From Odoribacter splanchnicus DSM 20712 (lineage in GTDB: Bacteria; Bacteroidota; Bacteroidia; Bacteroidales; Marinifilaceae): DNA of 64,000 nucleotides. A program made the translations under genes and the position numbers. The notes under the pieces were generated by a model. That model searched no databases. It saw only the letters and a program-made list of their open reading frames with translations, and was not told the DNA's origin. The stretch spans positions 4,328,289 through 4,392,288 of the forward strand of contig NC_015160.1 in the NCBI RefSeq assembly GCF_000190535.1. The letters run 5' to 3'. This document shows, in pieces, positions 17,828 to 58,107 of this stretch (the stretch's first letter is position 1; each line of letters opens with the position of its first letter).

Positions 17828-19207
17828 CTACTTCATTCCTTCCACCTCCCCGATTGTCATCGGTTTATATTTGCCGAGCCGGCGTGCTCCGTCGGGAGTG
17901 ATCAGGTAGTCTTCTTCGTTACGGATGCCGCTGAAACCTTTCCAGGGTTCCAATTTGTCGTATTGGATAAATTCGCAGAACCGTTTTTCACTTCTCCAAT
18001 AGTCGATGAGCTCAGGAATAAAATAGATGCCGGGTTCTATGGTAAAGACAAAACCGGGTTCCAGGGGGCGGGCCAGACGGAGCGATTTGAAACCGAACTG
18101 TGTACTTTTGGGTTGTCCGTTATATCCTACCCATACTTCGCCTAAATTCTCCATGTCGTGAACATCGAGTCCCATCATGTGGCCGAGTCCGCAGGGAAAG
18201 AACAACGCATAAGCACCCGAACGGGCTGCTTCGTCGGGATCTCCTTTCATCAGGCCGATCGATTTCATCCCTTCTGCAATCGTACGGGCGGCAATCAGAT
18301 GGACCTCTTTGAACGGAATGCCCGGTCTTAGGGCGGCAACTGCGGCCTGATGGGCTTGTAAAGCGATTTGATAGATGGTTTTCTGCTGTTCTGTAAAATG
18401 TTTACTTACCGGAATGGTCGACGAGAGGTCGCCGGAATAGTGCATGCCGTTTTCCGCTCCTGCATCCAACAATAACAACTGCCCTTCGTGGAGGATATTA
18501 CCGTGATAATGATTATGGAGGGTTTGCCCGTTAATGGTGGCAATCACCGGGAAAGACAATTGTCCGCCATTTTGTAAAGCGACTTCTGTCACTGCTGCTG
18601 CTATTTCACATTCTTTCATCCCCGGCCGGACAAGTTGCATCGCCCGGATGTGCATATCGGCGGAGATATTTACTGCTTCTTCTATCTCCCTGATCTCCTC
18701 GGCCGATTTGTAGTTTCGTTGGCCGACTACAGCCCGGATCAGTTCGGTAGAGGCTCCGGCAACTTGCGCTTCAGGGGCAATCCCCAGTAAACGGAGTAGG
18801 GTGACCTGATGTTCACCCCGGTAAGGAGGCAGATAATGGATACGACGTCCCTGCTGTACCGCTTTATTTAAATAATCGCTCAGCTGGGCGGTCGGAGCGG
18901 TTGCTGTGATGCCTACTGAAGCACTCTTTTCCCGTATCGTGGGTTGGGTGCCCATCCAGACGATATCGTCGATGGTCAGTTCATCCCCGAAAATAATTTC
19001 CCGGTCTTCATCGATATCGATCAGAGCCGAAAGACCGGCATAATCCGAACCGAAAAAATATAAAAAAGTCGAATCCTGACGGAAATGATACGTGTTGTCG
19101 GTATAATTCATACCGCTTTCATTGTTGCCGAGAAATAGTAAAATCCCTTTACCGATTTCTTTCTTCAGTCTGTTACGTCTCTGAATGTAAGTTTCTTTGT
19201 TGAACAT
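17828..19207 (-). CDS. pepP: Xaa-Pro aminopeptidase (M24, aminopeptidase P family)
   Basis: 459 residues. The N-terminal creatinase-like domain runs to about residue 170. The C-terminal pita-bread domain carries the five metal ligands: Asp in LLLDAGAENG, Asp in YSGDLSST, His in GLGHMMGLDVHD, Glu in FTIEPGIYF and Glu in GIRNEEDYLIT. It removes the N-terminal residue from peptides with proline at position 2 and should be cytoplasmic, as no signal peptide is seen. It sits immediately beside the HTCS gene, transcribed the same way 36 bases after it, so it may be co-transcribed. It would fit intracellular breakdown of Pro/Hyp peptides. Confidence 0.92.
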   Translation of the reverse strand: MFNKETYIQRRNRLKKEIGKGILLFLGNNESGMNYTDNTYHFRQDSTFLYFFGSDYAGLSALIDIDEDREIIFGDELTIDDIVWMGTQPTIREKSASVGITATAPTAQLSDYLNKAVQQGRRIHYLPPYRGEHQVTLLRLLGIAPEAQVAGASTELIRAVVGQRNYKSAEEIREIEEAVNISADMHIRAMQLVRPGMKECEIAAAVTEVALQNGGQLSFPVIATINGQTLHNHYHGNILHEGQLLLLDAGAENGMHYSGDLSSTIPVSKHFTEQQKTIYQIALQAHQAAVAALRPGIPFKEVHLIAARTIAEGMKSIGLMKGDPDEAARSGAYALFFPCGLGHMMGLDVHDMENLGEVWVGYNGQPKSTQFGFKSLRLARPLEPGFVFTIEPGIYFIPELIDYWRSEKRFCEFIQYDKLEPWKGFSGIRNEEDYLITPDGARRLGKYKPMTIGEVEGMK

Positions 19208-19242
19208 AATCGTATGGTTTTATAAGTAGATATTGGGTTTGG

Positions 19243-23401: not shown

Positions 23402-23589
23402 AGATGTTTATTCGATGATTATGCTAAATGAAATTCGCATATTGCAGAACCGTTCCTACAAAGGACTTTTTGAATGCTGGTTATATTAGCGGATTCTTTT
23501 CTTTATCCTGAATCCGAAGGACAATTTTTCTCTGTGTTTTTTTTATCTTGAGAGTGAGATAAATTTTATTATTCTAAATTTATTTCGTC

Positions 23590-24372
23590 ATGCGTGGAAA
23601 TATATTCGATATCAAGCGTTATGCGATTCATGACGGGCCGGGAATACGAACGACTGTTTTCTTGAAAGGGTGTCGTTTGCATTGTCGTTGGTGTCATAAC
23701 CCGGAAAGTCAGGCTGTGGGAACTGTGTCGATGAAACAAGTCCGGAAATTAGGAGACCGTGAATTCGAAGAAATCCGGAAGGTGGGCTACGGGATTTCGG
23801 TCGATGAATTAGTCGAAGAGATAGCTAAAGATGCGGTGTTTTTCGAAGAATCGGGAGGAGGCGTTACTTTTTCAGGAGGAGAACCTTTGTTGCAACCGGT
23901 TTTTCTGTTGGAATGTCTCAAAGCTTGTAAGGCCCGTCGTATCCATACCTGTATCGATACGGCCGGAGTGGCTTCCGGAGCATATTTAGAAGAAATATGC
24001 CGGTATACGGATTTGTTTCTTTACGACGTAAAAACTGCCGATCCTCAAAAGTTCGAAGCGTACATCGGTAAAGGATTCCGGGAGGCGTGTGAACATCTGA
24101 GGAAAATTGCCGGACAGGGTGCCGGAGTGATTGTCCGGATACCTGTTATTCCCGGTTTTAACGACGATAAGAAGAGTGTGCAGGAGACGATTCGTTTTTT
24201 ACAGACGATGCCTGTTTTGAAAGAGGTGAATCTGCTCCCTTTCCACCGTACGGGGGCAGATAAATACAAACGGCTCGGTATGGATTGGGAAATGGGAGAT
24301 CTTCCGGGCCTGAAAGAGGAAGACCTGAAAGATATCCGGGAAATGTTCAGGGAACAAGGCTTTCGGATATAA
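23590..24372 (+). CDS. hypE: Glycyl radical enzyme activase (HypD-activating enzyme)
   Basis: 260 residues. The radical SAM cluster motif is CRLHCRWC (Cys at about 28, 32 and 35), preceded by the activase signature IHDGPGIRTTVFLKG. GGGVTFSGGEPLLQ binds SAM. It uses a 4Fe-4S cluster and SAM to make the glycyl radical on its partner, here the product of the next gene, 36 bases downstream. Many activases of this group carry an inserted ferredoxin-like domain with two extra clusters; here the stretch after HNPESQ has only about 35 residues and no cysteine pairs, so the auxiliary clusters are absent, as in pyruvate formate-lyase activase. The specificity is inferred from the neighbour. Confidence 0.92.
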   Translation: MRGNIFDIKRYAIHDGPGIRTTVFLKGCRLHCRWCHNPESQAVGTVSMKQVRKLGDREFEEIRKVGYGISVDELVEEIAKDAVFFEESGGGVTFSGGEPLLQPVFLLECLKACKARRIHTCIDTAGVASGAYLEEICRYTDLFLYDVKTADPQKFEAYIGKGFREACEHLRKIAGQGAGVIVRIPVIPGFNDDKKSVQETIRFLQTMPVLKEVNLLPFHRTGADKYKRLGMDWEMGDLPGLKEEDLKDIREMFREQGFRI

Positions 24373-24408: not shown

Positions 24409-26778
24409 ATGAAAATGACCGAACGAATCAGAAAACTGCGTGAGCAGAGTCTGAATGCTGAGAATCGGATCTCGGCGGAAAGAGCTTTACTGATTACTGA
24501 ATTTTATCAATCGGGGATGGCCGATGCCGAACCGGTACCGGTTCAACGGGCTTTAGCGTTTAAATATATCCTGGAACATAAGTATATTTGTGTGAATGAG
24601 GGTGAATTGATTGTCGGCGAGCGGGGACCGGCCCCGAAGGCTACTCCGACTTATCCCGAAATCTGTATCCACTCGTTACAAGATCTCGAGATATTGAACG
24701 ATCGCCCGAAAGTATCCTTTAAATCCGATGAAACTACCCGGGCTGCTTACCGGGATATCATTATTCCCTACTGGAAAGGGAAAAGTAATCGCGACCGGAT
24801 ATTTCAGAATTTGCCACAGGAGTGGAAAGAGGCTTATACTGCCGGTGTATTTACGGAATTTCAGGAACAAAGGGCGCCGGGACATACGGCTTTAGGGATA
24901 AAGATGTTTCGTACCGGGTTGTTGGATTTGAAAGAAGAAATAGCCGAAAGTCTGGCTAAGACCGACCTGGTAAACGATCCGGAAGGCGTGGATAAACGCG
25001 ACGAGCTGAGGGCGATGGATATCGTTTGTGATGCAATGATCCGCTATGCCGAACGGTATGCCGAACGCCTGGAAGAGCTGGCGGCTGAAGAAAAAGACCC
25101 GGTGAGAAAGAAAGAGCTGGAGAAAATGGCTGCGATTTGTCGTCGGGTACCGGCTCATGCTCCGACAACCGTTCATGAGGCATTACAACATTATTGGTTT
25201 ATCCATTTGGGTGTGGTTACCGAATTGAATCCCTGGGACTCTTTCAATCCCGGACGTTTGGATCAGAGCCTGTATCCGCTGTATAAAAAACAGCTGGAAG
25301 AGGGGACGGTCACTCAGGAAGAAGTATACGAAATGTTGCAGTCTTTCTGGGTGAAATTCAACAACCATCCTTCTCCGCCCAAAGTGGGGGTTACGGCTGA
25401 AGAAAGTAATACTTATACCGATTTTTGTCTGATCAATGTCGGAGGGGTGAAGGAAGACGGTAGCGACGGGGTGAACGAGATGTCGTATATCCTGCTGGAT
25501 GTAATCCGGGAGATGCGTTTACTGCAACCCAGTTCGATGATTCAGGTCAGTAAGAAAAATCCGGACCGTTTTATCCGGGCTGCTGTCGAAATCATCAAAA
25601 CCGGCTTCGGTCAACCGTCGGTGTTCAATACGGATGCTTTGGTACAGGAAATGTTGCGGGCGGGAAAAGATGTCCGCGATGCCCGGAACGGCGGGTGCTC
25701 GGGATGTGTGGAAACCGGGGCTTTCGGTACCGAAGCTTATATCCTTACCGGCTATTTTAATCTGCCGAAAATTCTGGAATTGACCCTGAACGACGGATTC
25801 GATAAGCGGACCGGCAAACAGATCGGTCTGAAAACCGGGACAGCTACAGATTATCGGACCTATGAGGAATTGTTTGCAGCCTATAAGGCACAGGTACAAC
25901 ATTTTATGCGGATCAAACTGACCGGTAACAATATCATCGAACGCATATTTATGAAATATATGCCGGTACCTTTCTTGTCCGTACTGATCGAAGATTGTAT
26001 CCGGAACGGAAAAGATTATATGTGTGGTGGCGCCCGTTACAACAGTAGCTATGTGCAAGGGGTGGGCCTGGGTAGCATTACGGATATGCTGACCGCTTTA
26101 CGCTATCATGTGTATGATAAAAAGACCATCGCGATGGAGACTATGGAGAAAGCTTTGGCGAACGATTTCAAAGGGTTCGAAGAGTTGCAGTATCAGTTGG
26201 TGTATCATACTCCGAAATACGGTAACGATGATGATTATGCCGACGAGCAGGAGGTACAGGTGTTCGATATGTACTATGATGTTTTGTCGGGACATAAATC
26301 TCCCCGGGGGGCGGACTATCGGGTAAATATGTTGCCTACTACCTGTCATGTTTATTTCGGTAAAGTGACCGGAGCTACTCCGGATGGACGGAATGCCTGG
26401 AAAGTGCTGTCGGAAGGCATCTCTCCGGTCCAGGGGGCCGATACGAACGGACCGACGGCAGTCATCCGTTCTGCCGCCAAAATCGATCATATCAAAACCG
26501 GCGGGACGTTACTGAATCAGAAATTTACTCCTTCGCTTCTTTCAACCGAAGAAGGATGTAATAATCTGGTACATCTGATCCGGGCTTATTTCCGGATGGA
26601 CGGGCATCATATCCAGTTTAATGTGGTCGATGCCGATACGCTCCGGGAAGCTCAGAAACATCCCGAAGACTACAGGGATCTGATTGTCCGGGTTGCCGGA
26701 TATAGTGATTATTTCAACGACCTGGGCGAAGATTTGCAGAACGAGATCATTTGTCGTACGGAACAAACGACATTTTAA
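24409..26778 (+). CDS. hypD: trans-4-hydroxy-L-proline dehydratase (glycyl radical enzyme)
   Basis: 789 residues. It converts trans-4-hydroxy-L-proline to pyrroline-5-carboxylate, which ProC can reduce to proline. The active-site loop GGCSGCVETGAFGTE places the thiyl Cys at 433 and Glu at 435; the glycyl loop RVAGYSDYFND places Gly at 764. These agree within one residue with Clostridioides difficile HypD (Cys434, Glu436, Gly765) as I recall it. Length, the stretch ELNPWDSFNPGRLDQ with its conserved Asp, GISPVQGADTNGPTAVI and the C-terminal RTEQT also match HypD rather than glycerol/diol dehydratase or choline lyase. It follows hypE in an operon, opposite the HTCS gene, and neighbours a locus rich in proline peptidases and arabinofuranosidases. 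Confidence 0.9.
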   Translation: MKMTERIRKLREQSLNAENRISAERALLITEFYQSGMADAEPVPVQRALAFKYILEHKYICVNEGELIVGERGPAPKATPTYPEICIHSLQDLEILNDRPKVSFKSDETTRAAYRDIIIPYWKGKSNRDRIFQNLPQEWKEAYTAGVFTEFQEQRAPGHTALGIKMFRTGLLDLKEEIAESLAKTDLVNDPEGVDKRDELRAMDIVCDAMIRYAERYAERLEELAAEEKDPVRKKELEKMAAICRRVPAHAPTTVHEALQHYWFIHLGVVTELNPWDSFNPGRLDQSLYPLYKKQLEEGTVTQEEVYEMLQSFWVKFNNHPSPPKVGVTAEESNTYTDFCLINVGGVKEDGSDGVNEMSYILLDVIREMRLLQPSSMIQVSKKNPDRFIRAAVEIIKTGFGQPSVFNTDALVQEMLRAGKDVRDARNGGCSGCVETGAFGTEAYILTGYFNLPKILELTLNDGFDKRTGKQIGLKTGTATDYRTYEELFAAYKAQVQHFMRIKLTGNNIIERIFMKYMPVPFLSVLIEDCIRNGKDYMCGGARYNSSYVQGVGLGSITDMLTALRYHVYDKKTIAMETMEKALANDFKGFEELQYQLVYHTPKYGNDDDYADEQEVQVFDMYYDVLSGHKSPRGADYRVNMLPTTCHVYFGKVTGATPDGRNAWKVLSEGISPVQGADTNGPTAVIRSAAKIDHIKTGGTLLNQKFTPSLLSTEEGCNNLVHLIRAYFRMDGHHIQFNVVDADTLREAQKHPEDYRDLIVRVAGYSDYFNDLGEDLQNEIICRTEQTTF

Positions 26779-27220: not shown

Positions 27221-28330
27221 ATGAAAGGTAAACAAATTTTTTATTGGCTGAGTTTATTATTATGTCTGGCGGTGGCAGGATGTAGTAGTGACGGAGAAGA
27301 CGAGGTTACGCCTAAAGATGAACCGGGAGAAGAAGGAGGAGGGGAACAGACCGGCCGGGAAGTATGGAGCTTCGATGTAAAAGTAATGCTCGACCGGGCG
27401 ACTTTTAAATCTTACGGTTCTTCCGCAAACGTTGTAAACAATAAATTGAAACAGCGTTTTAAAGAAGTAAGAGAGCTTTACCATGGGAAAAAAGGAATCA
27501 CCTATTTCGATGCCGATATAGAATTTGTCCCTTTCTTCGACGAAACTTGTGTATACGATTGTTCTTCTCAGGAAGTCCTGGATCATGCTGTGACCTATCG
27601 GGGCGATTATCCTTATCTTGTGATGTTCGACGGTAAAGTCGGTGATTTTTCCGATGAACGGGTACATAGCGATTGGACCGGCTGGGGGATCGAGGTCGTT
27701 TGCATTTCCGATAACAATAAAGGAGCACCTGACGGCGGGGCCACTACCTACGATATTTTATCCCCTTACAAAACTTCCGAATGCCTGGCCCATGAATTAG
27801 GGCATGCCCGCGGAGTTCCCGATATCTATGCGATGGAAGTGAAAACGAACCCGATCAGCGGGACCTTGTTCAGCCCGGTGACCTGTATGATGAATATTTG
27901 CTGGGGGGGAGATTCCTGGAGCGAATATGCACAATTACTGATCAACCGGAATAAAAATCTGGTGCGGGGACAAGAAGGATTCATTCCGTTGGAAGAACCC
28001 AAATATCCGAAGAACTTAGTGTTGAATATTACCCGGGACGGACAACCGGTGAAATATGCGGCAGTCAATATCTACCGGGAGGAAATGTATAAAAACACTG
28101 TCGATGTTACTGCTTTTATGAAAAAAACACTGGGGACCGACGGCTTGTTGAGCTTATCACCGGTCACTCTGTTCAATGGTGCGGGAGGAGGGATCGGATA
28201 TGGCGTCCTCTTGATCGAAGTCGTTGACGGAGAGAGCAAAACCTACCGTTATATTCCGGTTTATGAGGTTCAGATCGCTTATTTGAAAGGAGATACGGAC
28301 CAATATACGATAGAAATAAAATGTGATTGA
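27221..28330 (+). CDS. Lipoprotein with metzincin-type zinc site (putative metallopeptidase)
   Basis: 369 residues. A lipobox (LAVAGCSSD) is followed by an acidic, Gly-rich linker. The motif HELGHARGVPD (His191, Glu192, His195, Asp201) has the metzincin spacing HExxHxxGxxD, with Asp as the third zinc ligand. TCMMN at about 222-226 could be the Met-turn. The C-terminal ~110 residues look like a beta domain with a CNA-B-like start (LNITRDGQPVKYAAVNIY). I do not recognise a named family. It is the first gene of a SusC/SusD operon, 68 bases before susC. It probably cuts a protein ligand at the cell surface. Confidence 0.75.
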   Translation: MKGKQIFYWLSLLLCLAVAGCSSDGEDEVTPKDEPGEEGGGEQTGREVWSFDVKVMLDRATFKSYGSSANVVNNKLKQRFKEVRELYHGKKGITYFDADIEFVPFFDETCVYDCSSQEVLDHAVTYRGDYPYLVMFDGKVGDFSDERVHSDWTGWGIEVVCISDNNKGAPDGGATTYDILSPYKTSECLAHELGHARGVPDIYAMEVKTNPISGTLFSPVTCMMNICWGGDSWSEYAQLLINRNKNLVRGQEGFIPLEEPKYPKNLVLNITRDGQPVKYAAVNIYREEMYKNTVDVTAFMKKTLGTDGLLSLSPVTLFNGAGGGIGYGVLLIEVVDGESKTYRYIPVYEVQIAYLKGDTDQYTIEIKCD

Positions 28331-31511: not shown

Positions 31512-31519
31512 CCTAAAAC

Positions 31520-34860: not shown

Positions 34861-34894
34861 GGAATTTTAAAATTTTAAGTCATGAAAAAATGGA
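34837..34894 (+). repeat. Duplicated leader segment, copy 1
   Basis: This segment and 37648-37697 share the order CCAATxGAAGTGAGTAG, an ATTTTAAGTCATGAAAA block and the start of a MKKW/MKRW reading frame, with an 8-9 base insertion in this copy. The copies lead into the secreted protein at 34882 and into a stopped remnant at 37684. Confidence 0.7.
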
Positions 34895-35457: not shown

Positions 35458-35549
35458 GAGCCTGTTTATCATAAAGAGTTCAATGTTGCAAGAGTGTTCC
35501 TTCTTTCCGGGAAGATGATTATTTTTAAGTTACCGCACTTGAAATAATT

Positions 35550-36291: not shown

Positions 36292-36302
36292 CTCCGTTAG
36301 CT

Positions 36303-40295: not shown

Positions 40296-40404
40296 ATAGT
40301 TGGTTTGTAACAAAATGAATAATTGAAAGGAGGTGCTTTGTCACTGTGTCTTAGTGTGTATTAGGTCGGCAGTGATGGAGTATGAACTATTTAATATTTG
40401 AATT

Positions 40405-40744: not shown

Positions 40745-40763
40745 ATTAAATAATTGATAAATC

Positions 40764-40800
40764 GGATGTCAGAAAATGAGTTATTATTTTTCTGACATCC
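40764..40800 (+). terminator. Hairpin after the NVEALA gene
   Basis: A perfect 13-bp inverted repeat (GGATGTCAGAAAA at 40764-40776, TTTTCTGACATCC at 40788-40800) with an 11-base loop. No T run follows, so it could end or attenuate transcription of the peptide gene ahead of propeller 4. Confidence 0.65.
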
Positions 40801-40812
40801 ATTAAATGAAAA

Positions 40813-42030: not shown

Positions 42031-42031
42031 T

Positions 42032-42130
42032 ATGCAAAGGTTTATGAGATGGCCTTTATTACTGGCTATCGTGGTAAGTATTTTTTTACGGGAAACGAAA
42101 ATAAATAAGTTATGGCAGATGGGAAAATAA
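42032..42130 (+). CDS. Micro-ORF overlapping the O-ligase-like gene
   Basis: A 32-residue frame starts two bases after the propeller 4 stop and contains one hydrophobic stretch (MRWPLLLAIVVSIFLRETK). It overlaps the next gene start by 19 bases in another frame, a layout that could couple translation. It resembles the 37599 micro-ORF in length, helix and basic end, but the similarity is weak. Confidence 0.3.
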   Translation: MQRFMRWPLLLAIVVSIFLRETKINKLWQMGK

Positions 42131-43899: not shown

Positions 43900-43930
43900 T
43901 GATTTTTGCTTACCCTAAATAACAAATGTG

Positions 43931-45476: not shown

Positions 45477-45624
45477 GAAGTTTGTACGATTTTTGCATCT
45501 AAAAAAATTTTTGTTGCATTCTTTTTCTTTCGTTCATACTATTTTTAACCTCACTTAACGGAGCGGAAATGGGAGGATAGAAAGAAAAGTAACGGTGGAG
45601 AGTAAATTTTTATAAAAATTGAAT

Positions 45625-47607
45625 ATGGTAAAAAAAATCGTTGGAACAGGAGTATTACTTGTCCTGGCTTTGGCGTTGCAAGCCGGAGTGAAAATGTATA
45701 CTTTAAAGTCGCCGGACGGTAAAGTGAAACTCGAAGTGACTGCCGGACAGGGGATAGCTTATTCACTTTTCTATGATGGCCGGCTTTTATTAAAACCTTC
45801 CCGGATAGCCCTTCATACCGACCTGCCGGAAGCCGATCATTGGGAAAATATCCGTATAACGGGAACAAAACAGAGGCATGTGTCGGAGACGGTACAGGCT
45901 CCGTTCTATCGGGTGAAGGAGTTCGGAATCGATTGTAATGAACTCGAACTCCGGTTGAACAATGGTTTTTCACTGCTGATGCGGGCCTATAACGATGGTA
46001 TGGCCTATCGGTTCGTGGCCGGCCGGAAAGGAGAGATGACAGTGGTGGAGGAGAGGGCCGAATTTAATTTTGCTGATGATTTCGAAGCCTATATACCGTA
46101 TTCTACCAATCCGAAAGATCCCTGGAATATGGCTTTTCAAAATTTTTACACCAAAGCTCCTCTTACACAATATAATACAGAGTTACCTGCTTTTTTACCC
46201 TTGACTGTGGATGCCGGTGCGGTGAAACTGACCTTACTGGAATCCGATTTGGAAGCTTATCCGGGCATGTTCGTCTGTGGAGATGGAAAAACGCCGGCTT
46301 TGAAAGGGGTGTTTGCAGCCTATCCTCAGGAAACGTTTAAGAATAAGTGGCGTTGTCAGGAGACGGTGAAAACCCGCAGGCCTTATATTGCGCGGGTAGC
46401 CGGTAAATGTACCTTTCCCTGGAGAATTATGGCAGTGACTGCAGAAGATACTCAGATGCCGGTGAATCATCTGGTGTATGCGCTGGCCGCTCCCAACCGG
46501 ATCGGTGATTACAACTGGATAAAACCCGGGAAAGTGGCCTGGGAATGGTGGAACGACTGGGGGATCAGCGGAGTGGATTTTAAAGTAGGAATCAATACGC
46601 CGACTTATAAACATTATATCGACTTTGCTGCGGAACAAGGAATCGAATATGTGGTGCTCGACGAAGGTTGGTCGGATCCCAAACAGGGAGATATCATGAC
46701 CACTGTTCCGGAGATCGATTTACCGGAATTGGCCGAATATGCCCGCAACAAAGGGGTCGGACTGATTCTGTGGGCGGTGATGAACGTGCTGGACGAGCAG
46801 CTCGAAAAGGCTTGCCGGTATTATGCCGGTATGGGGATTAAGGGCTTCAAAGTCGACTTCCTCGACCGGGATGATCAGAAAGCGGTAGAGATGGTTTACC
46901 GGATCGCGGAAACTACTGCAAAATATAAGCTGTTCGTGGATTTTCACGGTATGTATAAACCGACCGGAATCAACCGTACTTTCCCGAATGCGATCAATTT
47001 CGAAGGAGTATTCGGCATGGAGGAACTGAAATGGAGTAATCCCGATATGCCTTTGTACGACGTAACTATGCCTTTTATTCGTATGATGGCCGGGAATGTG
47101 GATTATACCCAGGGAGCTATGCGGAATGCAGTGAAAAAGGACTTCAGGGATATTTACAGTAGCCCGATGAGTCAGGGGACCCGTTGTCATCAACTGGCTA
47201 CTTATATCGTGTTCGACAGTCCGTTGGTGATGCTGTGTGATGCCCCCACCGCCTATCGCAAGGAACCCGAATGTACCCGCTTTATCGCCGGTTTACCCGT
47301 TGTGGCCGATGAAACCCGGATATTGCAGGGGAAAATGGGAGAATATATCGTTACTGCCCGGCGGGTGGGGGAAGACTGGATCGTCGGAGGACTGACCGAT
47401 TGGGAAGCACGCACGGTGGATTTGGATTTGAGTTTCTTGCCGGAAGGGATGTTCCGGGCTGAAATTTTCTGCGACGGTATAAATGCGGATAAAAAGGGAG
47501 AGGATTACCGGCATGAATATCGTGATGTAAAAAGAGAGGATCGGTTGAAGATGCAACTTGCTCCGGGAGGAGGATTTGCTATCAGGTTGAAGAAAAATCA
47601 TAACTGA
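45625..47607 (+). CDS. Glycoside hydrolase family 97, retaining type (alpha-galactosidase candidate)
   Basis: About 660 residues with a signal peptide (VLLVLALALQAG). The family core is clear: EYVVLDEGWSDP, IKGFKVDFLDRDDQ and NAINFEGVFGMEELKW. Asp411 in KVDF corresponds to the nucleophile of retaining GH97 enzymes such as the B. thetaiotaomicron alpha-galactosidase; inverting SusB-type members lack it. Glu460 is the likely general acid. I use the ATG at 45625 rather than the TTG two codons upstream. It starts a same-strand run with the S9 peptidase, GH127 and M64 genes. Extensins carry Ser-linked alpha-galactose, a fitting substrate but unproven. Confidence 0.88.
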   Translation: MVKKIVGTGVLLVLALALQAGVKMYTLKSPDGKVKLEVTAGQGIAYSLFYDGRLLLKPSRIALHTDLPEADHWENIRITGTKQRHVSETVQAPFYRVKEFGIDCNELELRLNNGFSLLMRAYNDGMAYRFVAGRKGEMTVVEERAEFNFADDFEAYIPYSTNPKDPWNMAFQNFYTKAPLTQYNTELPAFLPLTVDAGAVKLTLLESDLEAYPGMFVCGDGKTPALKGVFAAYPQETFKNKWRCQETVKTRRPYIARVAGKCTFPWRIMAVTAEDTQMPVNHLVYALAAPNRIGDYNWIKPGKVAWEWWNDWGISGVDFKVGINTPTYKHYIDFAAEQGIEYVVLDEGWSDPKQGDIMTTVPEIDLPELAEYARNKGVGLILWAVMNVLDEQLEKACRYYAGMGIKGFKVDFLDRDDQKAVEMVYRIAETTAKYKLFVDFHGMYKPTGINRTFPNAINFEGVFGMEELKWSNPDMPLYDVTMPFIRMMAGNVDYTQGAMRNAVKKDFRDIYSSPMSQGTRCHQLATYIVFDSPLVMLCDAPTAYRKEPECTRFIAGLPVVADETRILQGKMGEYIVTARRVGEDWIVGGLTDWEARTVDLDLSFLPEGMFRAEIFCDGINADKKGEDYRHEYRDVKREDRLKMQLAPGGGFAIRLKKNHN

Positions 47608-47622: not shown

Positions 47623-49857
47623 ATGAAAATTATTCCTGTTATTTTATTATTGGTGTTCAGTTGTGCCGTTTGTGCACAGGAGCTGAAAGAAAAATATGCC
47701 GAAGCAGATGGGTTCAGGCAAAAGTATGAGGCCGGATATTTTGGAGGGAATATCACTCCCCGCTGGATCGGAAATACACATTTTTGCTGGTATGCGGTCA
47801 AGACTCCTGCAGGTACTGATTTTATACTGGTGAATGCCGGTAAACGACAGAAACAACCGGCTTTCGATCAGAAAGCTATGGCTAAAGCATTGACGGCTGA
47901 ACTGGGACGAAAAGTGGAACCCGGGAAAATGCCTTTCCGGGAGATTGTGTTTTCGGACGATCTGAAACAACTGACTTTTGTGACCGAAGGCATGAAATAT
48001 ACTTACGACCGGAATAAAAATAAGGTGATCGGTAAGGTGAAAGAAGAACCCCGCCGCCGGGAAGGCCACTGGGGAGGTGTGAATGAAGAGAATTGGCAGG
48101 GAGCTACTCCTTCGCCCGATGGAAAAAAAGAAGCCTTTGTCAGTGAAGGAAATCTGTTTGTCCGTGATATAAGTAGCGGCAAGGTGAACCGGCTGAGCTA
48201 CGACGGAGCCCCCGGAGAATACTATTCTTCTTTTATCAGCTGGTCGCCGGATTCCCGGAAATTGGTGAGTTGTAAATACCGCCCCGCCTGGATCCGGAAA
48301 TTGAAGACCGTCGTGTCTTCGCCTGCCGGACAACTGCAACCCAAAATGGAAGAGATCGATTATGTGAAACCGGGAGATGCCCTGCCTGTCAAACGACCGG
48401 TATTGTTTCTGGTGGAGGAAGGACGACAGGTAAATATCGAGTTTGCCGAACCGGAAAAACAGTTTAACCTGAACAATATCCGTTGGGCCGATGACAGTCG
48501 TTCTTTTACTTTCGATTATAACAAACGGGGACATCAGGAATATATAGTTTATAAAGTCACCGGGGACAACCCGAAGGCTCAAGTGCTGATCGGGGAGAAG
48601 ATGCCTACTTTTGTTTATTATAATTTGCTGTATCGCTACGATCTGAAAGACCGGAACGAGATCCTCTGGATTTCGGAGCGTGACGGATGGCGCCATCTTT
48701 ATCTCTATGATGCGGATAACGGTCAGGTGAAACGACAACTGACCAAAGGGGAATGGGTAGTGAAACGGGTGTTGCATGTGGACGATGCCGCCAGGGTGGT
48801 TTATTTGGTAGGGTGCGGAAAAGATGCCGGTGAAGATCCCTATCTCGAGAAAGTATACCGGCTGAATATAGAGAATGGAGAATTGCTCTGCCTGACACCT
48901 GAAAATGGAAACCATCAAGTGGAATTTTCCAGGGATTATACCTATTTTACAGATAGCTGGTCCCGGATCGATTGTCCGCCGGTAGCTGCTTTGCGTAGTG
49001 CGAAAGACGGATCGGTCTTGTTGTCTTTGGAAAAGGCCGATATCAGCAAGATGCTGGCAGAAGGGTGGAGAATGCCTGAAGTGTTTTGTGCTAAAGGAAG
49101 AGACGGAGAAACCGATATTTGGGGAGTTATCGTCCGTCCGGTAGATTTCGACCCGTCCAAAAAATATCCCGTAATCGAGTATATCTATGCCGGACCACAC
49201 GATTCTTTTGTCCCGAAATCTTTCACCGTATCTCCGGTAGATGCCGCTTTGGCGCAATTGGGCTTTATCGTGGTACAGATCGACGGAATGGGGACGGCTA
49301 ACCGTTCGAAAAAATTCCATGATGTATGTTGGAAAAACCTGAAAGACGGAGGCTTTCCCGACCGGATCGCCTGGATGAAGGCTGCGGCGGCTAAATATCC
49401 TGAGATGGATATCGACCGGGTTGGGATTTATGGCTGCTCGGCAGGCGGACAAAATGCGATGGGAGCTGTATTGTTCCACCCTGATTTTTATAAAGTGAGT
49501 GTCGCTGCTTGCGGTTGCCATGATAACCGGATGGATAAGATCTGGTGGAATGAACAGTGGATGGGGTATCCCGTCGGAAAAGAATATGAAGAATGCTCCA
49601 ATACGGTGAATGCTTATCGTCTGCAAGGGAAATTGATGCTGATCCTGGGGGAATTGGACGATAATGTCGATCCTTCGACAACTTTCCAGGTGGTGAATGC
49701 TTTGATCGGTGCCGGTAAAGAGTTTGAATTTGTAGTATTGCCCAACCAGCGGCATACGATGGGCGGAGCTTACGGTGAACGGAAAAGACGGGATTTCTTT
49801 ATCCGGCATTTACAAGGCCTGCAAACTCCGGATTGGAATAAAGAGGAAAAGAAATAA
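47623..49857 (+). CDS. S9 family dipeptidyl peptidase (DPP IV-like)
   Basis: 744 residues with a signal peptide (LLLVFSCAVCAQ; a lipoprotein is also possible). An eight-bladed DPP IV N-terminal propeller covers about 100-480 (GVNEENWQGATPSPDGKKEAF, ISWSPDSRKLV). The hydrolase domain holds the triad Ser606 (GIYGCSAGGQN), Asp679 (GELDDNVDP) and His711 (NQRHTMGG). The family releases N-terminal X-Pro dipeptides. It follows the GH97 stop by 15 bases, so it is co-transcribed. With pepP inside the cell, this would dismantle Pro/Hyp-rich peptides. The usual nucleophile elbow is GWSYGG; here it is GCSAGG. Confidence 0.9.
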   Translation: MKIIPVILLLVFSCAVCAQELKEKYAEADGFRQKYEAGYFGGNITPRWIGNTHFCWYAVKTPAGTDFILVNAGKRQKQPAFDQKAMAKALTAELGRKVEPGKMPFREIVFSDDLKQLTFVTEGMKYTYDRNKNKVIGKVKEEPRRREGHWGGVNEENWQGATPSPDGKKEAFVSEGNLFVRDISSGKVNRLSYDGAPGEYYSSFISWSPDSRKLVSCKYRPAWIRKLKTVVSSPAGQLQPKMEEIDYVKPGDALPVKRPVLFLVEEGRQVNIEFAEPEKQFNLNNIRWADDSRSFTFDYNKRGHQEYIVYKVTGDNPKAQVLIGEKMPTFVYYNLLYRYDLKDRNEILWISERDGWRHLYLYDADNGQVKRQLTKGEWVVKRVLHVDDAARVVYLVGCGKDAGEDPYLEKVYRLNIENGELLCLTPENGNHQVEFSRDYTYFTDSWSRIDCPPVAALRSAKDGSVLLSLEKADISKMLAEGWRMPEVFCAKGRDGETDIWGVIVRPVDFDPSKKYPVIEYIYAGPHDSFVPKSFTVSPVDAALAQLGFIVVQIDGMGTANRSKKFHDVCWKNLKDGGFPDRIAWMKAAAAKYPEMDIDRVGIYGCSAGGQNAMGAVLFHPDFYKVSVAACGCHDNRMDKIWWNEQWMGYPVGKEYEECSNTVNAYRLQGKLMLILGELDDNVDPSTTFQVVNALIGAGKEFEFVVLPNQRHTMGGAYGERKRRDFFIRHLQGLQTPDWNKEEKK

Positions 49858-49881: not shown

Positions 49882-52284
49882 ATGAAAAAAAGAGTGATGA
49901 CTTTTGTTGCCGCATGTCTGGCACTGAGTGTGTGTGCTCAGAAGAATGGACATACCGGTTATCCCATTACCCCGGTTCCTTTTACAGCTGTAAAAGTGAA
50001 CGATGCCTTTTGGGGACAACGACTGAAAGCCAGCCGTGAAGTGACGATTCCGCTGGCATTCAGTAAATGCGAAGAAACAGGACGCTACAAGAATTTCGAA
50101 ATGGCCGCTAATCCCGGTCCTCATAATAAAGTAACCGGATTTTCTTTTGACGATACCGATGTGTATAAAACGATCGAAGGGGCCAGCTATCTGTTGCAGA
50201 CGTATCCGGATGAAAAATTGAAAAAATATATCGACAGTGTGCTGGTGATCGTTGCCAGGGCACAGGAACCGGACGGATATCTGTATACTTCCCGGACGAT
50301 GAATCCGGAACACCCCCATGAATGGGCCGGATCGAAACGCTGGGAAAAAGTGGAAGACCTGAGCCACGAGTTTTATAACCTGGGGCATATGGTTGAAGGG
50401 GCTGTCGCTCACTATCAGGCTACCGGACAGAAAAACTTTCTGAATATTGCGATCCGCTATGCCGACTGTGTTTGCCGTGAGATCGGTGATAAACCCGGAC
50501 AGCAGGTGAAAGTGCCCGGACATCAGATCGCCGAGATGGCTTTGGCGAAGTTGTATGTGGTGACCGGGGATAAAAAATACCTGGATGAAGCGAAATTTTT
50601 CCTGGATAAGCGGGGATATACGGAACGGAAAGACGAATATAGCCAGGCTCATAAGCCGATTCTGGAACAGAACGAGGCCGTCGGACATGCTGTCAGGGCT
50701 GCTTATATGTATTCCGGTATCGCCGATGTCGCTGCCCTGACCGGTGATCAGGAGTATATCGATGCGATCGACCGGATCTGGGAGAATGTCGTTACTAAAA
50801 AGTTGTATATTACAGGCGGAATCGGAGCTACCGGCAGTGGTGAAGCTTTCGGTAAAAATTACGAATTACCCAACATGTCGGCCTATTGTGAGACTTGTGC
50901 CGCTATCGGTAATGTGTATTGGAATTATCGCTTGTTTCTGCTGAAAGGAGATGCCAAATATTACGATGTACTCGAACGTACCCTTTATAATGGCGTATTG
51001 TCGGGGATTTCTCTGGACGGTGGGGCTTTCTTTTATCCCAATCCTTTGGAATCTATCGGCCAGCATCAACGTTCGCCCTGGTTCGGATGTGCCTGTTGCC
51101 CGTCGAATGCCTGCCGTTTTATTCCTTCTGTTCCGGGATATATTTATGCTGTGAAAGATAAGGAAGTTTATGTCAATTTGTTTGTGGCCAACGAATCGAC
51201 CCTCGAAGTCGCCGGGAAGAAAGTAGGATTGAAACAGTCCACCTCTTATCCCTGGAACGGGGATATACGAGTGGCCGTGACTCCCCGCGGAATTTCCGAT
51301 TTTGCGATGAAAATCCGGATTCCGGGTTGGGTGCAGGGAAAGGTCGTACCGAGCGATTTGTACCGTTATGCCGATGGCAAAAAACTGGGCTATACAGTGA
51401 AAGTGAACGGTAAGCCGGCAGAGAGTACGCTGGAAAAAGGTTATTTTACCATTCAACGCAAATGGAAAAAAGGGGATATCGTAGATATTCATTTCGATAT
51501 GGAACCGCGGATTGTAAAAGCGAATTATAAAGTGGAAGCCGATCGTGGACGGGTATCCGTCGAGCGAGGACCGGTGGTGTATTGTGCCGAATGGCCGGAT
51601 AATGATTTCAGTGTCCGGGGAATCCTGATGAATCAAACACCCGAATTTACCGTAGAAAACCGCAGTGATCTGTTGTACGGCATAGAGCTGTTGAAAACAC
51701 AGGCTCAGACGCTGGAGTTCGATAAAGAGGGACGTCTGGAGGCAAAAGAAGTCACTTTATCCCTGATTCCTTATTATGCATGGGCACATCGGGGAGCCGG
51801 AGAGATGACCGTTTGGCTACCGATCGACCTGAATGCTACCCGTCCGGCAATGCCGCCGACGATTGCTTCCGAAAGTGAGGTTTCTGCCTCTCACCGGAGT
51901 AGTGCTATCTCGGCGGTAAACGACCGTTTGCAACCACAGAATCCCGAGGATCGCTCGATGCCTTATTACCATTGGTGGCCGAAAAAGAATACAACCGAAT
52001 GGATTGTATACGACTTCAAAGGCGAACAGACTGTCTCTTCTTCTACCGTTTACTGGTTCGACGACGGCCCGTGGGGTGGTTGCCGGATACCGGAAGCATG
52101 GAAGGTATATTATAAAAATGAAGCCGGAGCATGGGTCCCGGTGAAAAATACGGCTGATTATCCGATTCAGAAAGATGCTCCCTGTACGGTGGAATTCGAA
52201 CCGGTGAAAACCGCTGCGGTGAAACTCGAAGTTCAATTGCCGGAGGATAATGCGGCAGGAATTTTTGAGTGGGAAGTGAAATAA
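49882..52284 (+). CDS. GH127 beta-L-arabinofuranosidase
   Basis: 800 residues with a signal peptide (FVAACLALSVCAQ). The catalytic metal site of HypBA1-type enzymes is intact: Glu337 and Cys339 in YCETCAAIGNVYWN, and Cys403, Cys405 and Cys406 in WFGCACCPSN; the middle Cys (405) is the expected nucleophile. The helical barrel is followed by beta domains and a C-terminal extension of ~170 residues (ASHRSSAISAVNDRL onward) that looks like a carbohydrate-binding module. HypBA1 from Bifidobacterium cuts beta-1,2-linked arabinofuranose of hydroxyproline-linked arabinosides. Located 24 bases after the S9 gene. Confidence 0.93.
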   Translation: MKKRVMTFVAACLALSVCAQKNGHTGYPITPVPFTAVKVNDAFWGQRLKASREVTIPLAFSKCEETGRYKNFEMAANPGPHNKVTGFSFDDTDVYKTIEGASYLLQTYPDEKLKKYIDSVLVIVARAQEPDGYLYTSRTMNPEHPHEWAGSKRWEKVEDLSHEFYNLGHMVEGAVAHYQATGQKNFLNIAIRYADCVCREIGDKPGQQVKVPGHQIAEMALAKLYVVTGDKKYLDEAKFFLDKRGYTERKDEYSQAHKPILEQNEAVGHAVRAAYMYSGIADVAALTGDQEYIDAIDRIWENVVTKKLYITGGIGATGSGEAFGKNYELPNMSAYCETCAAIGNVYWNYRLFLLKGDAKYYDVLERTLYNGVLSGISLDGGAFFYPNPLESIGQHQRSPWFGCACCPSNACRFIPSVPGYIYAVKDKEVYVNLFVANESTLEVAGKKVGLKQSTSYPWNGDIRVAVTPRGISDFAMKIRIPGWVQGKVVPSDLYRYADGKKLGYTVKVNGKPAESTLEKGYFTIQRKWKKGDIVDIHFDMEPRIVKANYKVEADRGRVSVERGPVVYCAEWPDNDFSVRGILMNQTPEFTVENRSDLLYGIELLKTQAQTLEFDKEGRLEAKEVTLSLIPYYAWAHRGAGEMTVWLPIDLNATRPAMPPTIASESEVSASHRSSAISAVNDRLQPQNPEDRSMPYYHWWPKKNTTEWIVYDFKGEQTVSSSTVYWFDDGPWGGCRIPEAWKVYYKNEAGAWVPVKNTADYPIQKDAPCTVEFEPVKTAAVKLEVQLPEDNAAGIFEWEVK

Positions 52285-52342: not shown

Positions 52343-53629
52343 ATGAACTTATTGAAAATCATTTTTTTATTTTTCTGTACCTGGATGACAGGAGAGTTGA
52401 CGGCCCAGACACCCTTTGAACGGTATTTTCTGGACAAGACACTACGGTTCGACTACTACCATTGCGGAGATAGCCGGAACCAGGAGTATTTTTTCGACGA
52501 ATTGAAGGAAGAACCCTATTGGGCAGGTTCGAAAGTGTCTCTGCTGGATGATACCGGTTATGGGGTGCAATTGTTTAAAATCTTCGATAAAGCCAGTGGT
52601 AAAGAGATTTATTCCCGAAGCTATTGTACCTTGTTCAATGAGTGGCAAACCACTCCCGAAGCGCAGACTGTGCGTAAAGCCATGCCTGAGTCGGTGGTTT
52701 TCCCTTACCCGAAAAATGAGGTACGGATCGAGATCTATGCCCGTAACCGGAAAGGAGTTTTTGAAAAGAAATTCGAACAGGACATCGATCCCAATTCTTA
52801 TTTTGTGAAAAAGTTTACTCCCCGCTACGAGACCTTCGAGGTGGCCTATAACGGTAATCCCTCGACGCGGGTAGATATCGTACTCGTTCCCGAAGGGTAT
52901 ACCCAGAATGAGAAGGAGAAATTTGCAGCTGCCTGCCGGGTGTTTGCTGAAGAGTTTTTCAGTTACTCTCCTTTCAAGGAGAATACTGCCCGTTTTAATA
53001 TCCGGGCGGTGTGGTCCCCTTCGATGGAATCGGGTGTGACTATTCCCGGCGAACATGTATGGCGGAATACGGCGGCTCAAGCCCGCTACTATACCTTCGA
53101 CTCGGAACGTTATCAAATGATCGAGGACTTTCAGGGACTCCGGGATATCGCTGCCCATGCGCCGTATGATCATATTTATGTGTTGTCCAATACGCAGAAA
53201 TATGGTGGTGGCGGAATCTATAATTTTTATGGTATCAGTGCAGCTCACCATCCTAACCGTACCGGTAAAATCTATGTACACGAATTCGGACATGTGTTGC
53301 TGGGATTAGGGGATGAATATATTGGCAACGTGTCGTACAACGATATGTATCCGACCGATGTAGAGCCATGGGAAGCCAATCTGACCACCCTGACCGATTT
53401 CGGCCGGAAGGAATGGAAAAAGATGCTGGACACGAAAACGCCGGTTCCTACTCCTGTCAATGAAAAAACACCTCAGAAATTAGGGGTTTATGAAGGAGGT
53501 GGTTATGTGAATAAAGGAGTGTATCGTCCATGGCCCAACTGTCTGATGAATAACCTGCATACCATCGATATCTTTTGCCCCGTATGTAGTCAGGCGATCC
53601 GGAAGCAAATCGATTTTCTGTGTCGTTGA
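52343..53629 (+). CDS. M64 family metallopeptidase (IgA-peptidase M64 type)
   Basis: 428 residues with a signal peptide (FFCTWMTGELTAQT). An N-terminal M64_N-like beta domain (about 25-155) precedes the catalytic domain. Its zinc site HEFGHVLLGLGDEY starts at His313 and matches the HExxH...GL.DEY form of the M64 family. Clostridium relatives cleave IgA after Pro-Val, so proline-rich targets are known for this family. It ends the GH97-S9-GH127-M64 gene run. Secreted or periplasmic. Confidence 0.9.
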   Translation: MNLLKIIFLFFCTWMTGELTAQTPFERYFLDKTLRFDYYHCGDSRNQEYFFDELKEEPYWAGSKVSLLDDTGYGVQLFKIFDKASGKEIYSRSYCTLFNEWQTTPEAQTVRKAMPESVVFPYPKNEVRIEIYARNRKGVFEKKFEQDIDPNSYFVKKFTPRYETFEVAYNGNPSTRVDIVLVPEGYTQNEKEKFAAACRVFAEEFFSYSPFKENTARFNIRAVWSPSMESGVTIPGEHVWRNTAAQARYYTFDSERYQMIEDFQGLRDIAAHAPYDHIYVLSNTQKYGGGGIYNFYGISAAHHPNRTGKIYVHEFGHVLLGLGDEYIGNVSYNDMYPTDVEPWEANLTTLTDFGRKEWKKMLDTKTPVPTPVNEKTPQKLGVYEGGGYVNKGVYRPWPNCLMNNLHTIDIFCPVCSQAIRKQIDFLCR

Positions 53630-55710: not shown

Positions 55711-55716
55711 GAGACT

Positions 55717-58107
55717 TTACCTTACTTTCCATTCCAATATTCCGGCTGATTTGCCTTCCTGTAACTGGGCGGTTAATCTCAGAGCTTTGGTTCTGACGGG
55801 CTGGAAGTGGACTGTACAATATTTATCTTTAGCGATTTCGTAAGGATCGGTATTTTTTACCGGCAGCCATTTCTCGCCGGCTTTGTATTCGAGACGCCAG
55901 GAGACCGGGAGTTGGAAATCGATATCGTAATGTCCTAATTCCAACCAATATACGGATGCTTCGGTGAGAGTCATCGGTTGGTCCCATTCGTATTGAGCCC
56001 ATTCTTCTGTGCCAAAGCATTGCCACCAATTGTGAAACTGCATCGATTTATCCGCCGAATTGCGGGGTTCGAACCGGTCGTTCAAACCGTATCCTCCGTA
56101 AGGGATCGAAACAGAAGCCTGTGCTTGTGAAGCCAGGGTTTCTGTGCGGCGTGGAATGCTGGCCTCGCGGGTATAAGGGATCCATACATTCATTTCGTTG
56201 GCTCCGCGGTTGTCCCAGGCATAATAAGGAATGGCCGTCACGGAGGTTGGCAGAGTCGTATGGCCGTCGGAAAGTAAATGATATCCCTGGCCTTTTAAGG
56301 TCATGACACCGTGAAGCAGATCGGGCTTAAACTCCGGACTGAACGGAGTATCTTCCTCTGTAAACAGATCCAAAGCGTAACCGTCATGATCGCTGGCTTC
56401 GACACAATATACTATCGGACCGTATATTAGAGCATATTTGTTACGATCGTCGATAACTTGTGGGTCGGCGATCACTTTTCTGACTTGCATCGGTAAATTC
56501 AGGACGATTTGATCGTTACCCTTCCAGTCGCCTCGGAGAAGGGCATAACCGTTCCGGACTTCCGGTTTTACCGTTTTTCCGTTCAGGCTGATGGTATAAC
56601 TTGGTGTATCTTTGTCGAGATAGGTATATAGGGTGCCGGGAAGAGGTTGCTGTTGTACCCAACCGGGAATACGCAAAGCCAGAGTAAACGAAGAAGCAGG
56701 AGAGTGATCCAAAGTCAGCTTGATCCTGCCTTCCCAGGGATAACGGGTTTCCTGTTTGATGCGGACCGGTTGGCCCTCCAGAGTTATTTGACCTTCGTTG
56801 CCCATGTACAGATTGACGAAAAGAGTATTCCCTCGGACGGCATACACATAACCCGGAATGGACGGCATAAAGCGGGTGATATTGGAAGGACAACAGGAAC
56901 AACCGAACCATTCGCTCCGGTCATGACTACCGTCCGACATCAAAGGATTGTCGTAAAAATAACGTTTCCCATCGAGAGAGACTCCCGAAATGACTCCATT
57001 GTATAAGGCACGTTCGAGCACATCGTAATATTTCGATTCCCCGGTTAGTAAAAACAGACGGTAGTTCCAGTAGACATTGGAGATAGAGGCACAAGTTTCA
57101 CAATAGGAAGTCATGTTCGGAAGTTCGTAATTTTCCCCGAATCCTTCTCCCCAGGCTCTGGCTCCGATACCTCCTGTGATATATAATTTCCGGTCGGTGA
57201 TATTGTTCCATAGCCGTTTTGAAGCTTCGATGAATCCTTGATCCTGGCACAAGGCGGCGACATCTGCGACACCCGAATACAGGTAACCGAACCGCACGGC
57301 GTGTCCTACAGCCTCGTCTTGTTCCTTGATCGGTTTGTGGTCCTGGCTATACGGACTGGCAGGGCGCCCATCGGAGAGACGTCCCGCTTCCTCACAAAAA
57401 TACTTCGCTTTTTCCAGGTATTTGGGATTACCGGTCACCCGGTACATTTTAACAAGCCCCATCTCGACAATGGGATGCCCCGAGGGCTGATGGATCTGTC
57501 CTGAATCTGTTCCGAAAACCTGACATACCAGGTCGGCATTCTTTATCGCGACGTCAAGTAAATGACGTTTACCGGTAGCATAATAATGAGCCGTGGCGGC
57601 TTCGTATAAATGTCCGCAGTTGTAAAGTTCGTGGCTATTGACTTTCTCCCAGCGACGGCTGCCCATCCAGCGCTGAAGGCGGTCACAACGATTGGTACGG
57701 CAAGTGTAAAGATAACCGTCCGGTTCCTGGGCTGCTGCTATCAGGTGGATGACACTGTCGAGATAATGGTCGAGCTGTGGGTCGTATTGCACTGCCAGCA
57801 CGTAGGAAGCTCCTTCGACTACTTTGTAAATGTCGGTGTCGTCAAAGGGAAAATCTCCCTGGTGTTCTCCGGTTTTCAGACCTGCGGCAAGAGCGAAATT
57901 GTCCAGGCGGCCGTTGATTTCACATTGGTGAAAAGCCGTCGGGATGGATACTTCGCGATTTATACTCAGTTTAGGACTCCAAAAAGAATCCGCTAAATGG
58001 ACTTGGGTGAAATTTACGGGTTGGATCGGATAATCGGTCACTTTTTTTTGACAAGCCACGAAATTCAGCATTCCGCAGAGTATAGATATGAATATTATTT
58101 CCCTCAT
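55717..58107 (-). CDS. GH127 beta-L-arabinofuranosidase, lipoprotein form
   Basis: About 796 residues from the ATG at 58107, which I chose because it gives a lipoprotein signal (GMLNFVACQKK); a frame-internal ATG 48 bases upstream would spoil it. The metal/catalytic residues fall at exactly the same numbers as in the other copy: Glu337, Cys339, and Cys403, Cys405, Cys406 in WFGCSCCPSN. The C-terminal extension is also present (SIPYGGYGLNDRFEPRNSADKS). It is transcribed opposite to the first copy. The two enzymes probably act at different places, one soluble or periplasmic and one membrane-anchored. Confidence 0.92.
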   Translation of the reverse strand: MREIIFISILCGMLNFVACQKKVTDYPIQPVNFTQVHLADSFWSPKLSINREVSIPTAFHQCEINGRLDNFALAAGLKTGEHQGDFPFDDTDIYKVVEGASYVLAVQYDPQLDHYLDSVIHLIAAAQEPDGYLYTCRTNRCDRLQRWMGSRRWEKVNSHELYNCGHLYEAATAHYYATGKRHLLDVAIKNADLVCQVFGTDSGQIHQPSGHPIVEMGLVKMYRVTGNPKYLEKAKYFCEEAGRLSDGRPASPYSQDHKPIKEQDEAVGHAVRFGYLYSGVADVAALCQDQGFIEASKRLWNNITDRKLYITGGIGARAWGEGFGENYELPNMTSYCETCASISNVYWNYRLFLLTGESKYYDVLERALYNGVISGVSLDGKRYFYDNPLMSDGSHDRSEWFGCSCCPSNITRFMPSIPGYVYAVRGNTLFVNLYMGNEGQITLEGQPVRIKQETRYPWEGRIKLTLDHSPASSFTLALRIPGWVQQQPLPGTLYTYLDKDTPSYTISLNGKTVKPEVRNGYALLRGDWKGNDQIVLNLPMQVRKVIADPQVIDDRNKYALIYGPIVYCVEASDHDGYALDLFTEEDTPFSPEFKPDLLHGVMTLKGQGYHLLSDGHTTLPTSVTAIPYYAWDNRGANEMNVWIPYTREASIPRRTETLASQAQASVSIPYGGYGLNDRFEPRNSADKSMQFHNWWQCFGTEEWAQYEWDQPMTLTEASVYWLELGHYDIDFQLPVSWRLEYKAGEKWLPVKNTDPYEIAKDKYCTVHFQPVRTKALRLTAQLQEGKSAGILEWKVR

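Follow-up and report, generated by a model that had tools for sequence, protein, structure and literature searches.

The final 64 kb of the 4,392,288-base single-contig genome of Odoribacter splanchnicus DSM 20712, the stretch analysed here and called the window below, hold between positions 17828 and 58107 a gene cluster that we believe, on balance, to be a polysaccharide utilization locus (PUL)-type system for plant hydroxyproline (Hyp)-rich glycoproteins, most likely of the extensin type, which carries its own first step of Hyp catabolism. The gene set listed in an earlier note made from the DNA alone, namely HypD/HypE, several peptidases, two GH127s, a GH97, a hybrid two-component system (HTCS) sensor and SusC/SusD, was confirmed, at the level of gene families, by profile searches (30 open reading frames (ORFs) with Pfam, ten proteins with NCBIfam) and by comparison with solved relatives in the PDB. 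The Pfam matches include the SusC/SusD pair, HTCS and glycosidases that together characterise a PUL. Extensin-type backbones carry Ser-O-galactose. Paired GH127s, an alpha-galactosidase, prolyl and metallopeptidases and a Hyp dehydratase fit a Hyp-rich backbone bearing Hyp-O-arabinosides and Ser-O-galactose, as in extensins and also solanaceous lectins, in both of which Hyp-Ara3/4 is described in the available part of PMC7263609. An extensin-type glycoprotein is the best-supported substrate, and we infer the choice of extensin over arabinogalactan-protein.

HypD passes the curated profile NF043068 (1262.9 bits, cut-off 1100), is 55.2% identical to Clostridioides difficile HypD over 782 aligned residues and keeps 14/14 Hyp-binding or catalytic residues (His160, Asp278, Ser334, Asp339, Phe340, Cys434, Glu436, Tyr450, Thr645, Gly765 and four more) listed for the C. 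difficile enzyme in the available part of PMC7077986. The HypE activase falls below the cut-off of NF043069 (283.8 bits against 425) and above that of the broader TIGR02494. It is a 260-residue form, seemingly without the ferredoxin-like insert that is present in the 302-residue activase accompanying a second HypD type in the related genus g11. The GH97 passes the retaining alpha-galactosidase model NF053844 (898.1 bits, cut-off 800) and keeps the Asp altered in PDB entry 5e1q, which we take to be the GH97 nucleophile. ExC and CxCC motifs are the hallmark of GH127, and both GH127a and GH127b have a PF07944 domain with, by eye, ETC and CACC or CSCC motifs; the two enzymes fall into separate clades (support 100/100) and are predicted to act on Hyp-linked beta-L-arabinofuranose (beta-Araf). 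Neither is an aceric acid hydrolase by profile NF049879 (487.7 and 502.2 bits, cut-off 950). The metzincin candidate is a 369-residue lipoprotein with an ADAM/adamalysin-like predicted fold and an invariant HExxHxxGxxD, in agreement with the HExxHxxGxxH/D signature and fold of adamalysin-like metzincins.

The whole unit is found again in a second Odoribacter species (G005 in our genome codes, in which the window's own genome is G000). Here the Xaa-Pro aminopeptidase and HTCS lie on one strand, followed by HypE-HypD-metzincin-SusC-SusD-BT3987-GH97-DPPIV-GH127a-M64 and a convergent GH127b, with proteins 67–95% identical to their window counterparts and with common flanks (PPDK, a radical SAM protein, ProXp, LptD, an amidase and MlaD). 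Reading 17828..58107 as one locus stands for most of its genes, which belong to this conserved unit, but not for those at 34.9–45.5 kb, a 10.6-kb block missing in G005. G005 has two extra genes that the window lacks, a GH43 between GH127b and LptD (L034 1450-2982) and, separating ProXp from the Xaa-Pro aminopeptidase, a BNR sialidase-like gene (L032 11725-13386). A third species, G003, has HTCS-HypE-HypD on a short contig and BT3987-GH97-DPPIV-M64 on another, and G002, an Odoribacter without HypD, has M64-leader-DPPIV in the same neighbourhood, flanked, by eye, by LptD and ProXp/PPDK. It therefore seems either that a prolyl-peptidase site expanded into a glycoprotein locus or that such a locus was reduced to a prolyl-peptidase site.

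Much of the same enzyme kit recurs in PULs outside the genus that have no linked HypD. GH127a relatives of at least 64% identity outside Odoribacter occupy 24 places, 20 of which (18 genomes) were examined together with three PULs of g11/g14. Most of the 12 long GH127a genes among them have a GH43 nearby, accompanied in different combinations by GH127b, GH97, DPPIV or DUF6055, while two (L149 and L156) have none of these in view. The fullest kit, in G219, comprises an HTCS and then GH127b-SusC-SusD-DUF6055-GH97-GH43-GH127a-DPPIV, its GH97 ORF including a region similar to a 274-residue kit protein; this genome lies outside the HypD-positive set among 393 sampled Bacteroidales. Partial kits occur in G272, G352, G133, G236, G078, G264 and G408, and also in G042, G041 and G049, the G042 PUL having a GH27 melibiase in place of GH97. 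Wider flanks, taken for five long loci only, added a GH127b in G219, G272 and G133. Eight further GH127a relatives, in which the match ends near residue 650, have no kit neighbours within about 10 kb except at L166 (a different GH43, sharing 34% identity with the G005 enzyme) and L167 (a distant GH97, 27%). Long-form and residue-650 loci differ in the presence of a G042-kind GH43 (10/13 against 0/8) and of DUF6055 (7/13 against 0/8), while DPPIV (3/13), GH97 (3/13) and GH127b (4/13), each against 0/8, do not differ significantly (p 0.13–0.26); presence values in this comparison were entered by hand, several loci stop at contig ends and the relatives are not independent. The two forms do not separate in the tree, nor did the tree resolve GH127a into a glycoprotein-kit clade and an arabinogalactan clade.

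DUF6055 (PF19527) recurs both in GH127 kits and beside HypD (L051 14552-15922, L141 7082-8980, L150 2217-3569). By eye an HExxH is present in DUF6055 (two proteins read) and in the 274-residue kit protein, so both are probably metallopeptidases, and DUF6055 may be a family of such enzymes directed at plant glycoproteins.

HypD itself is widespread, occurring in 37/56 genomes of Odoribacter's family (E <= 1e-100) and in 134/393 sampled Bacteroidales (E <= 1e-200; 128 of them above the curated cut-off). Among 80 named HypD neighbourhoods, the best 80 of 578 and many of them broken at contig ends, a hand count gave 17 with an Xaa-Pro aminopeptidase relative and 13 with a DPPIV relative. HypD-HypE-GH97-DUF6055 is found in four (G035, G037, G041, G042) of the five g11 genomes with the second HypD type, the fifth (G040) having only a DUF6055 remnant beside HypD, and all five carry 3–4 GH127 genes elsewhere in the genome; the four genomes examined of g12 (G045 left out), which has the same HypD type, have neither GH97-DUF6055 neighbours nor GH127. 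In G087 (family f33), a case picked out post hoc, GH127-GH43-DPPIV lie divergent from HypE-HypD within 10 kb, and of 50 genomes that carry a close GH127a relative none but this one, G000 and G005 has it within 60 kb of HypD. HypD is present in 8/12 genomes with a long GH127a against 134/393 overall (Fisher p 0.025, uncorrected for kinship). The window's HTCS sensor is 73% identical to its counterpart in G005, 51% to one in G029 that stands beside HypE-HypD-DPPIV and, over most of its length, 35–36% to those beside GH127 kits in G219, G133 and G078, compared with 22–28% for the remaining HTCSs in the fetched loci.

Between the HTCS gene and hypE lies a conserved leader peptide, a new finding absent from the first reading of the sequence. 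The 22-codon ORF ends in RSYKGLFECWLY (..YKGLFECWLY before the stop), and by a fuzzy search 59/89 loci (some genomes counted twice) have such an ORF ahead of hypE. A 24-base degenerate pattern occurs in 30/56 family genomes, at 55 places, and the backward pattern nowhere. An 18-base pattern has 78 matches among the 393 Bacteroidales, and 40 of these matches lie upstream of HypD on its strand, in 40/134 HypD-positive genomes and, for 39 of the 40, at 854–1043 bp from HypD; the other 38 approximate the background (32 backward-pattern hits, counted by hand). Across 65 distinct leader peptides, from a search that tolerated a single substitution at any one of eight positions, L, C and W are invariant, 56 stop exactly two residues after the W, and there is little conservation before about position -12. 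The great majority of single-base codon differences are synonymous (ratios 0.004 and 0.031), values that are flattering because the motif was chosen from the same leaders; that choice does not account for the use of all six Leu codons. Like tnaC-type leaders, the ORF is short, precedes regulated genes and shows coding selection, its translation deduced from the codon pattern.

The leader is not confined to hypE. In a set of 70 distinct leaders, 13 precede other genes, namely Xaa-Pro aminopeptidases (8), S9 peptidases (3) and SusC-like genes (2); all 13 come from 11 regions of Odoribacter's family fetched for the purpose, and one aminopeptidase and one S9 peptidase were profile-checked, the rest being assigned by eye. 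Proteins of the proline-racemase and ornithine-cyclodeaminase families (Pfam) are also encoded in one leader operon; their NCBIfam matches include, below cut-offs, trans-3-hydroxyproline dehydratase and pyrroline-2-carboxylate reductase. The first 30 nt after the stop of 63 leaders contain 31.7% C and 10.8% G, against 16.7% C and 17.5% G in 577 controls. C before the leader core is 20%, so the post-stop stretch is the C-richer, while low G is not peculiar to it, each of the three stretches around the leader having about 11% G; O. splanchnicus shows only a small bias (C 23%, G 17%). No common hairpin was apparent by eye among the single-sequence folds viewed (part of the set), Rfam returned only one sub-threshold miRNA match in 23200-27400, and no publication on such a leader was found in the open-access literature, judged by titles.

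We read the ORF as a putative attenuating leader for a Pro/Hyp-peptide regulon. With tnaC-type leaders it shares conserved C-terminal residues near the stop, a variable N-terminus and perhaps C-rich, Rho-utilisation-like RNA after the stop, but its sequence is unrelated, and stalling, ligand and Rho dependence are hypothetical here. We tentatively suggest, at somewhat less than even confidence, a Bacteroidales nascent-peptide sensor in which a leader of the form G/Y-K-G-L-Y/F-E-C-W-x-x-stop would stall the ribosome when Hyp, Pro or Pro-peptides are plentiful, shield a downstream Rho site and so switch on hypED (in some lineages also Xaa-Pro aminopeptidase, S9 peptidases and susCD); in Odoribacter this regulon would have become linked to an extensin PUL driven by an HTCS.

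For the locus as a whole we infer substrate, compartments (signal peptides judged by eye), order of steps and co-regulation as follows. The HTCS would sense a glycan or glycopeptide, and the surface ADAM-like metzincin together with SusC, SusD and the BT_3987-like protein would account for cutting, binding and import of glycopeptides. GH127a and GH127b would take off beta-L-arabinofuranose and GH97 alpha-galactose, while the M64 and DPP IV-like peptidases would trim the peptide. The Xaa-Pro aminopeptidase, which has no signal peptide by eye and is read as cytoplasmic, would release Hyp for conversion to pyrroline-5-carboxylate (P5C) by HypE-activated HypD. Because the hypE-hypD leader is common to other Pro/Hyp-peptide genes, intracellular control besides the HTCS is suggested. 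The proposal that one locus strips the sugars, cuts the backbone, imports the products and uses Hyp is partly supported, by the Odoribacter unit and by HypD standing with kit enzymes in two other, differently built arrangements; HypD and GH127 are, however, not neighbours in Bacteroidales at large.

That last result is one of several that weigh against an extensin locus. When PF07944 was sought in 80 of 169 HypD-positive genomes, mostly few-contig ones, 38 had a match, within 30 kb of HypD only in G000, G005 and G179 (weak, 21.5 kb off), against a chance expectation of 1.7 hits in the 36 other genomes with matches (outside G000/G005); we reject a general HypD-GH127 linkage in Bacteroidales. 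G051 has a g11-type HypD and eight GH127 genes, with no GH97 and only a distant DUF6055 relative beside HypD, and HypE-HypD stand without the kit in O. laneus as well as in L054 and L057, relatives from the rumen (HypD 84–89% identical). In G003, HypD, GH97, DPPIV and M64 look intact, while GH127a and GH127b are fragments, the latter near a contig end, so HypD and arabinofuranosidase are separable. The kit HTCSs of G042, G041 and G049 are only 26–28% identical to the window sensor, no better than unrelated ones. No motif is common to the regions upstream of hypE, metzincin/susC, GH97 and GH127b (exact k-mers gave AT-rich matches, taken as chance), and the 442-bp gap after hypD contains promoter-like sequence, so that there may be more than one transcript. 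Pfam found no GH43 and no GH121-named match in the 30 window ORFs, and the NCBIfam HypBA2 model, run on ten proteins, only touches GH127a (22.9 against 3200). DPP IV normally dislikes Pro at P1', the classical enzyme not cutting before Pro, which makes cutting of a Ser-Hyp4 backbone problematic. Lastly, P5C is normally converted to proline by ProC, and proC is truncated in this genome (profile match 1-117 of 263, 71.6 bits, cut-off 196.75; genome 3433557-3433907 for the match, L189 about 1054-1417), with unrelated DNA following; the statement that the organism ferments or salvages Hyp is therefore unsettled, and P5C may go to glutamate or ornithine. Across eight genomes of the genus, some incomplete, only G005 has a ProC over the cut-off (one in-frame TAA flagged) and six have no match.

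In the tree GH127a clusters with 6ex6, the closest solved GH127, which we take to be BT3674 of B. thetaiotaomicron. In the available part of PMC10850190 BT3674 acts with exo-galactanases on larch arabinogalactan, which also counts against extensin and would suit a target of arabinogalactan-proteins or their backbones, likewise Hyp-rich, on which the GH127s would trim beta-L-Araf caps, while the backbone that other loci leave would go to the peptidases and HypD. As no galactanase or glucuronidase family is present among the 30 Pfam-scanned window ORFs, and an alpha-galactosidase with paired GH127s recurs instead, we think this unlikely. It is also improbable that a Pro/Hyp-peptide unit (Xaa-Pro aminopeptidase, HypED, DPPIV, M64) and an arabinose/galactose-glycan PUL landed at the same site as two independent neighbours. 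M64-leader-DPPIV alone at this site in G002, HypED alone in many relatives, DPPIV or Xaa-Pro aminopeptidase beside HypD without glycosidases in other loci and the missing common promoter motif would all agree with such an accident, but DPPIV is separated by 15 and 24 bp, respectively, from its neighbours GH97 and GH127a, kit PULs of other families also hold DPPIV and DUF6055 HExxH proteins, and HypD stands with glycosidases again in g11 and G087. Animal collagen, to our knowledge, has Hyp but no L-arabinofuranose, and we know of no animal substrate for GH127 beta-L-arabinofuranosidases. With two GH127s present and conserved in G005, a collagen or mucin degradation locus directed at the host is very hard to credit, although HypD is usually discussed with collagen (available parts of PMC7077986 and PMC11574389) and M64 is an IgA-peptidase family.

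Several known systems come close. The window HypD resembles that of the C. difficile HypD/HypE pair in sequence and active site, but is embedded in a PUL with a short activase, an upstream leader and a truncated proC in the genome. The arabinogalactan locus of B. thetaiotaomicron has a GH127 of the 6ex6 clade, if 6ex6 is indeed BT3674, whereas in the window no galactanases were found and peptidases and HypD occur instead. The Bifidobacterium longum system for Hyp-rich glycoproteins (HypAA GH43, HypBA2 GH121, HypBA1 GH127 and an ABC importer; available part of PMC7263609) is alike in its GH127, in the GH43 seen in G005 and in the inferred target, plant Hyp-linked arabinose; it takes up its products by ABC transporter, whereas the window has SusC/D, peptidases, an alpha-galactosidase and Hyp catabolism, with no GH121 recognised. 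A genomic proposal for Latescibacteria likewise took GH127 as an extensin arabinosidase, but the available part of that paper (PMC4454575) describes neither a PUL nor HypD. We found no described Bacteroidota route for extensins and no paper joining extensin with hydroxyproline dehydratase, although a search of open-access literature only is weak evidence.

Table 1. Features of the O. splanchnicus locus, with positions in the window.
Feature	Position	Strand	Basis
Xaa-Pro aminopeptidase (M24, AMP_N)	17828..19207	-	Pfam PF00557, PF05195; nearest PDB Xaa-Pro dipeptidase/aminopeptidase P
HTCS: Reg_prop/Y_Y_Y sensor, histidine kinase, receiver, AraC helix-turn-helix	19243..23343	-	Pfam
Conserved leader peptide MLNEIRILQNRSYKGLFECWLY (stop)	23421..23489	+	Cross-genome ORF conservation
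HypE-type radical SAM activase, short form	23590..24372	+	PF04055, PF13353; TIGR02494
HypD	24409..26778	+	NF043068; best PDB match 6vxc; 14/14 residues
ADAM-like metzincin lipoprotein, putative surface endopeptidase	27221..28330	+	Predicted fold, HExxHxxGxxD
SusC-like TonB-dependent transporter	28398..31511	+	Pfam
SusD-like lipoprotein	31520..33397	+	Pfam PF07980, PF14322
BT_3987-like lipoprotein, putative surface glycan binding	33422..34774	+	PF08522
10.6-kb block, outside unit	34882..45476	+	Missing at this site in G005, G003
GH97 retaining alpha-galactosidase	45619..47607	+	NF053844
DPP IV-like S9 peptidase	47623..49857	+	PF00930, PF00326; nearest PDB bacterial DPP IV
GH127a with F5/8-type C-terminal domain	49882..52284	+	PF07944, PF00754; best PDB match 6ex6
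M64 peptidase	52343..53629	+	PF09471, PF16217; PDB 4df9, 3p1v
GH127b, lipoprotein by eye	55717..58155	-	PF07944

The 10.6-kb block encodes a 191-residue protein, four DUF5128 propellers, a Wzy/TPR protein and, spread over two frames, a transglutaminase-like gene; this last stretch, 43928-45476, has transglutaminase-like and F5/8-like parts in overlapping frames and is possibly a single broken gene. A ProXp/YbaK-like aminoacyl-tRNA editing protein (17314-17808) adjoins the locus here, in G005 and, by eye, in G002, and could be relevant to the handling of Hyp or Pro analogues.

Plant food contains extensins and related wall glycoproteins. If the extensin interpretation is correct, the use of glycan, peptide and amino acid is coupled here within a single locus, which also supplies enzymes to try on Hyp-arabinosides and points to a plant source for gut Hyp, a compound that the literature consulted treats mainly with collagen. 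The leader, for its part, would mark a Pro/Hyp-peptide regulon in Bacteroidales, the control of which is directly testable.

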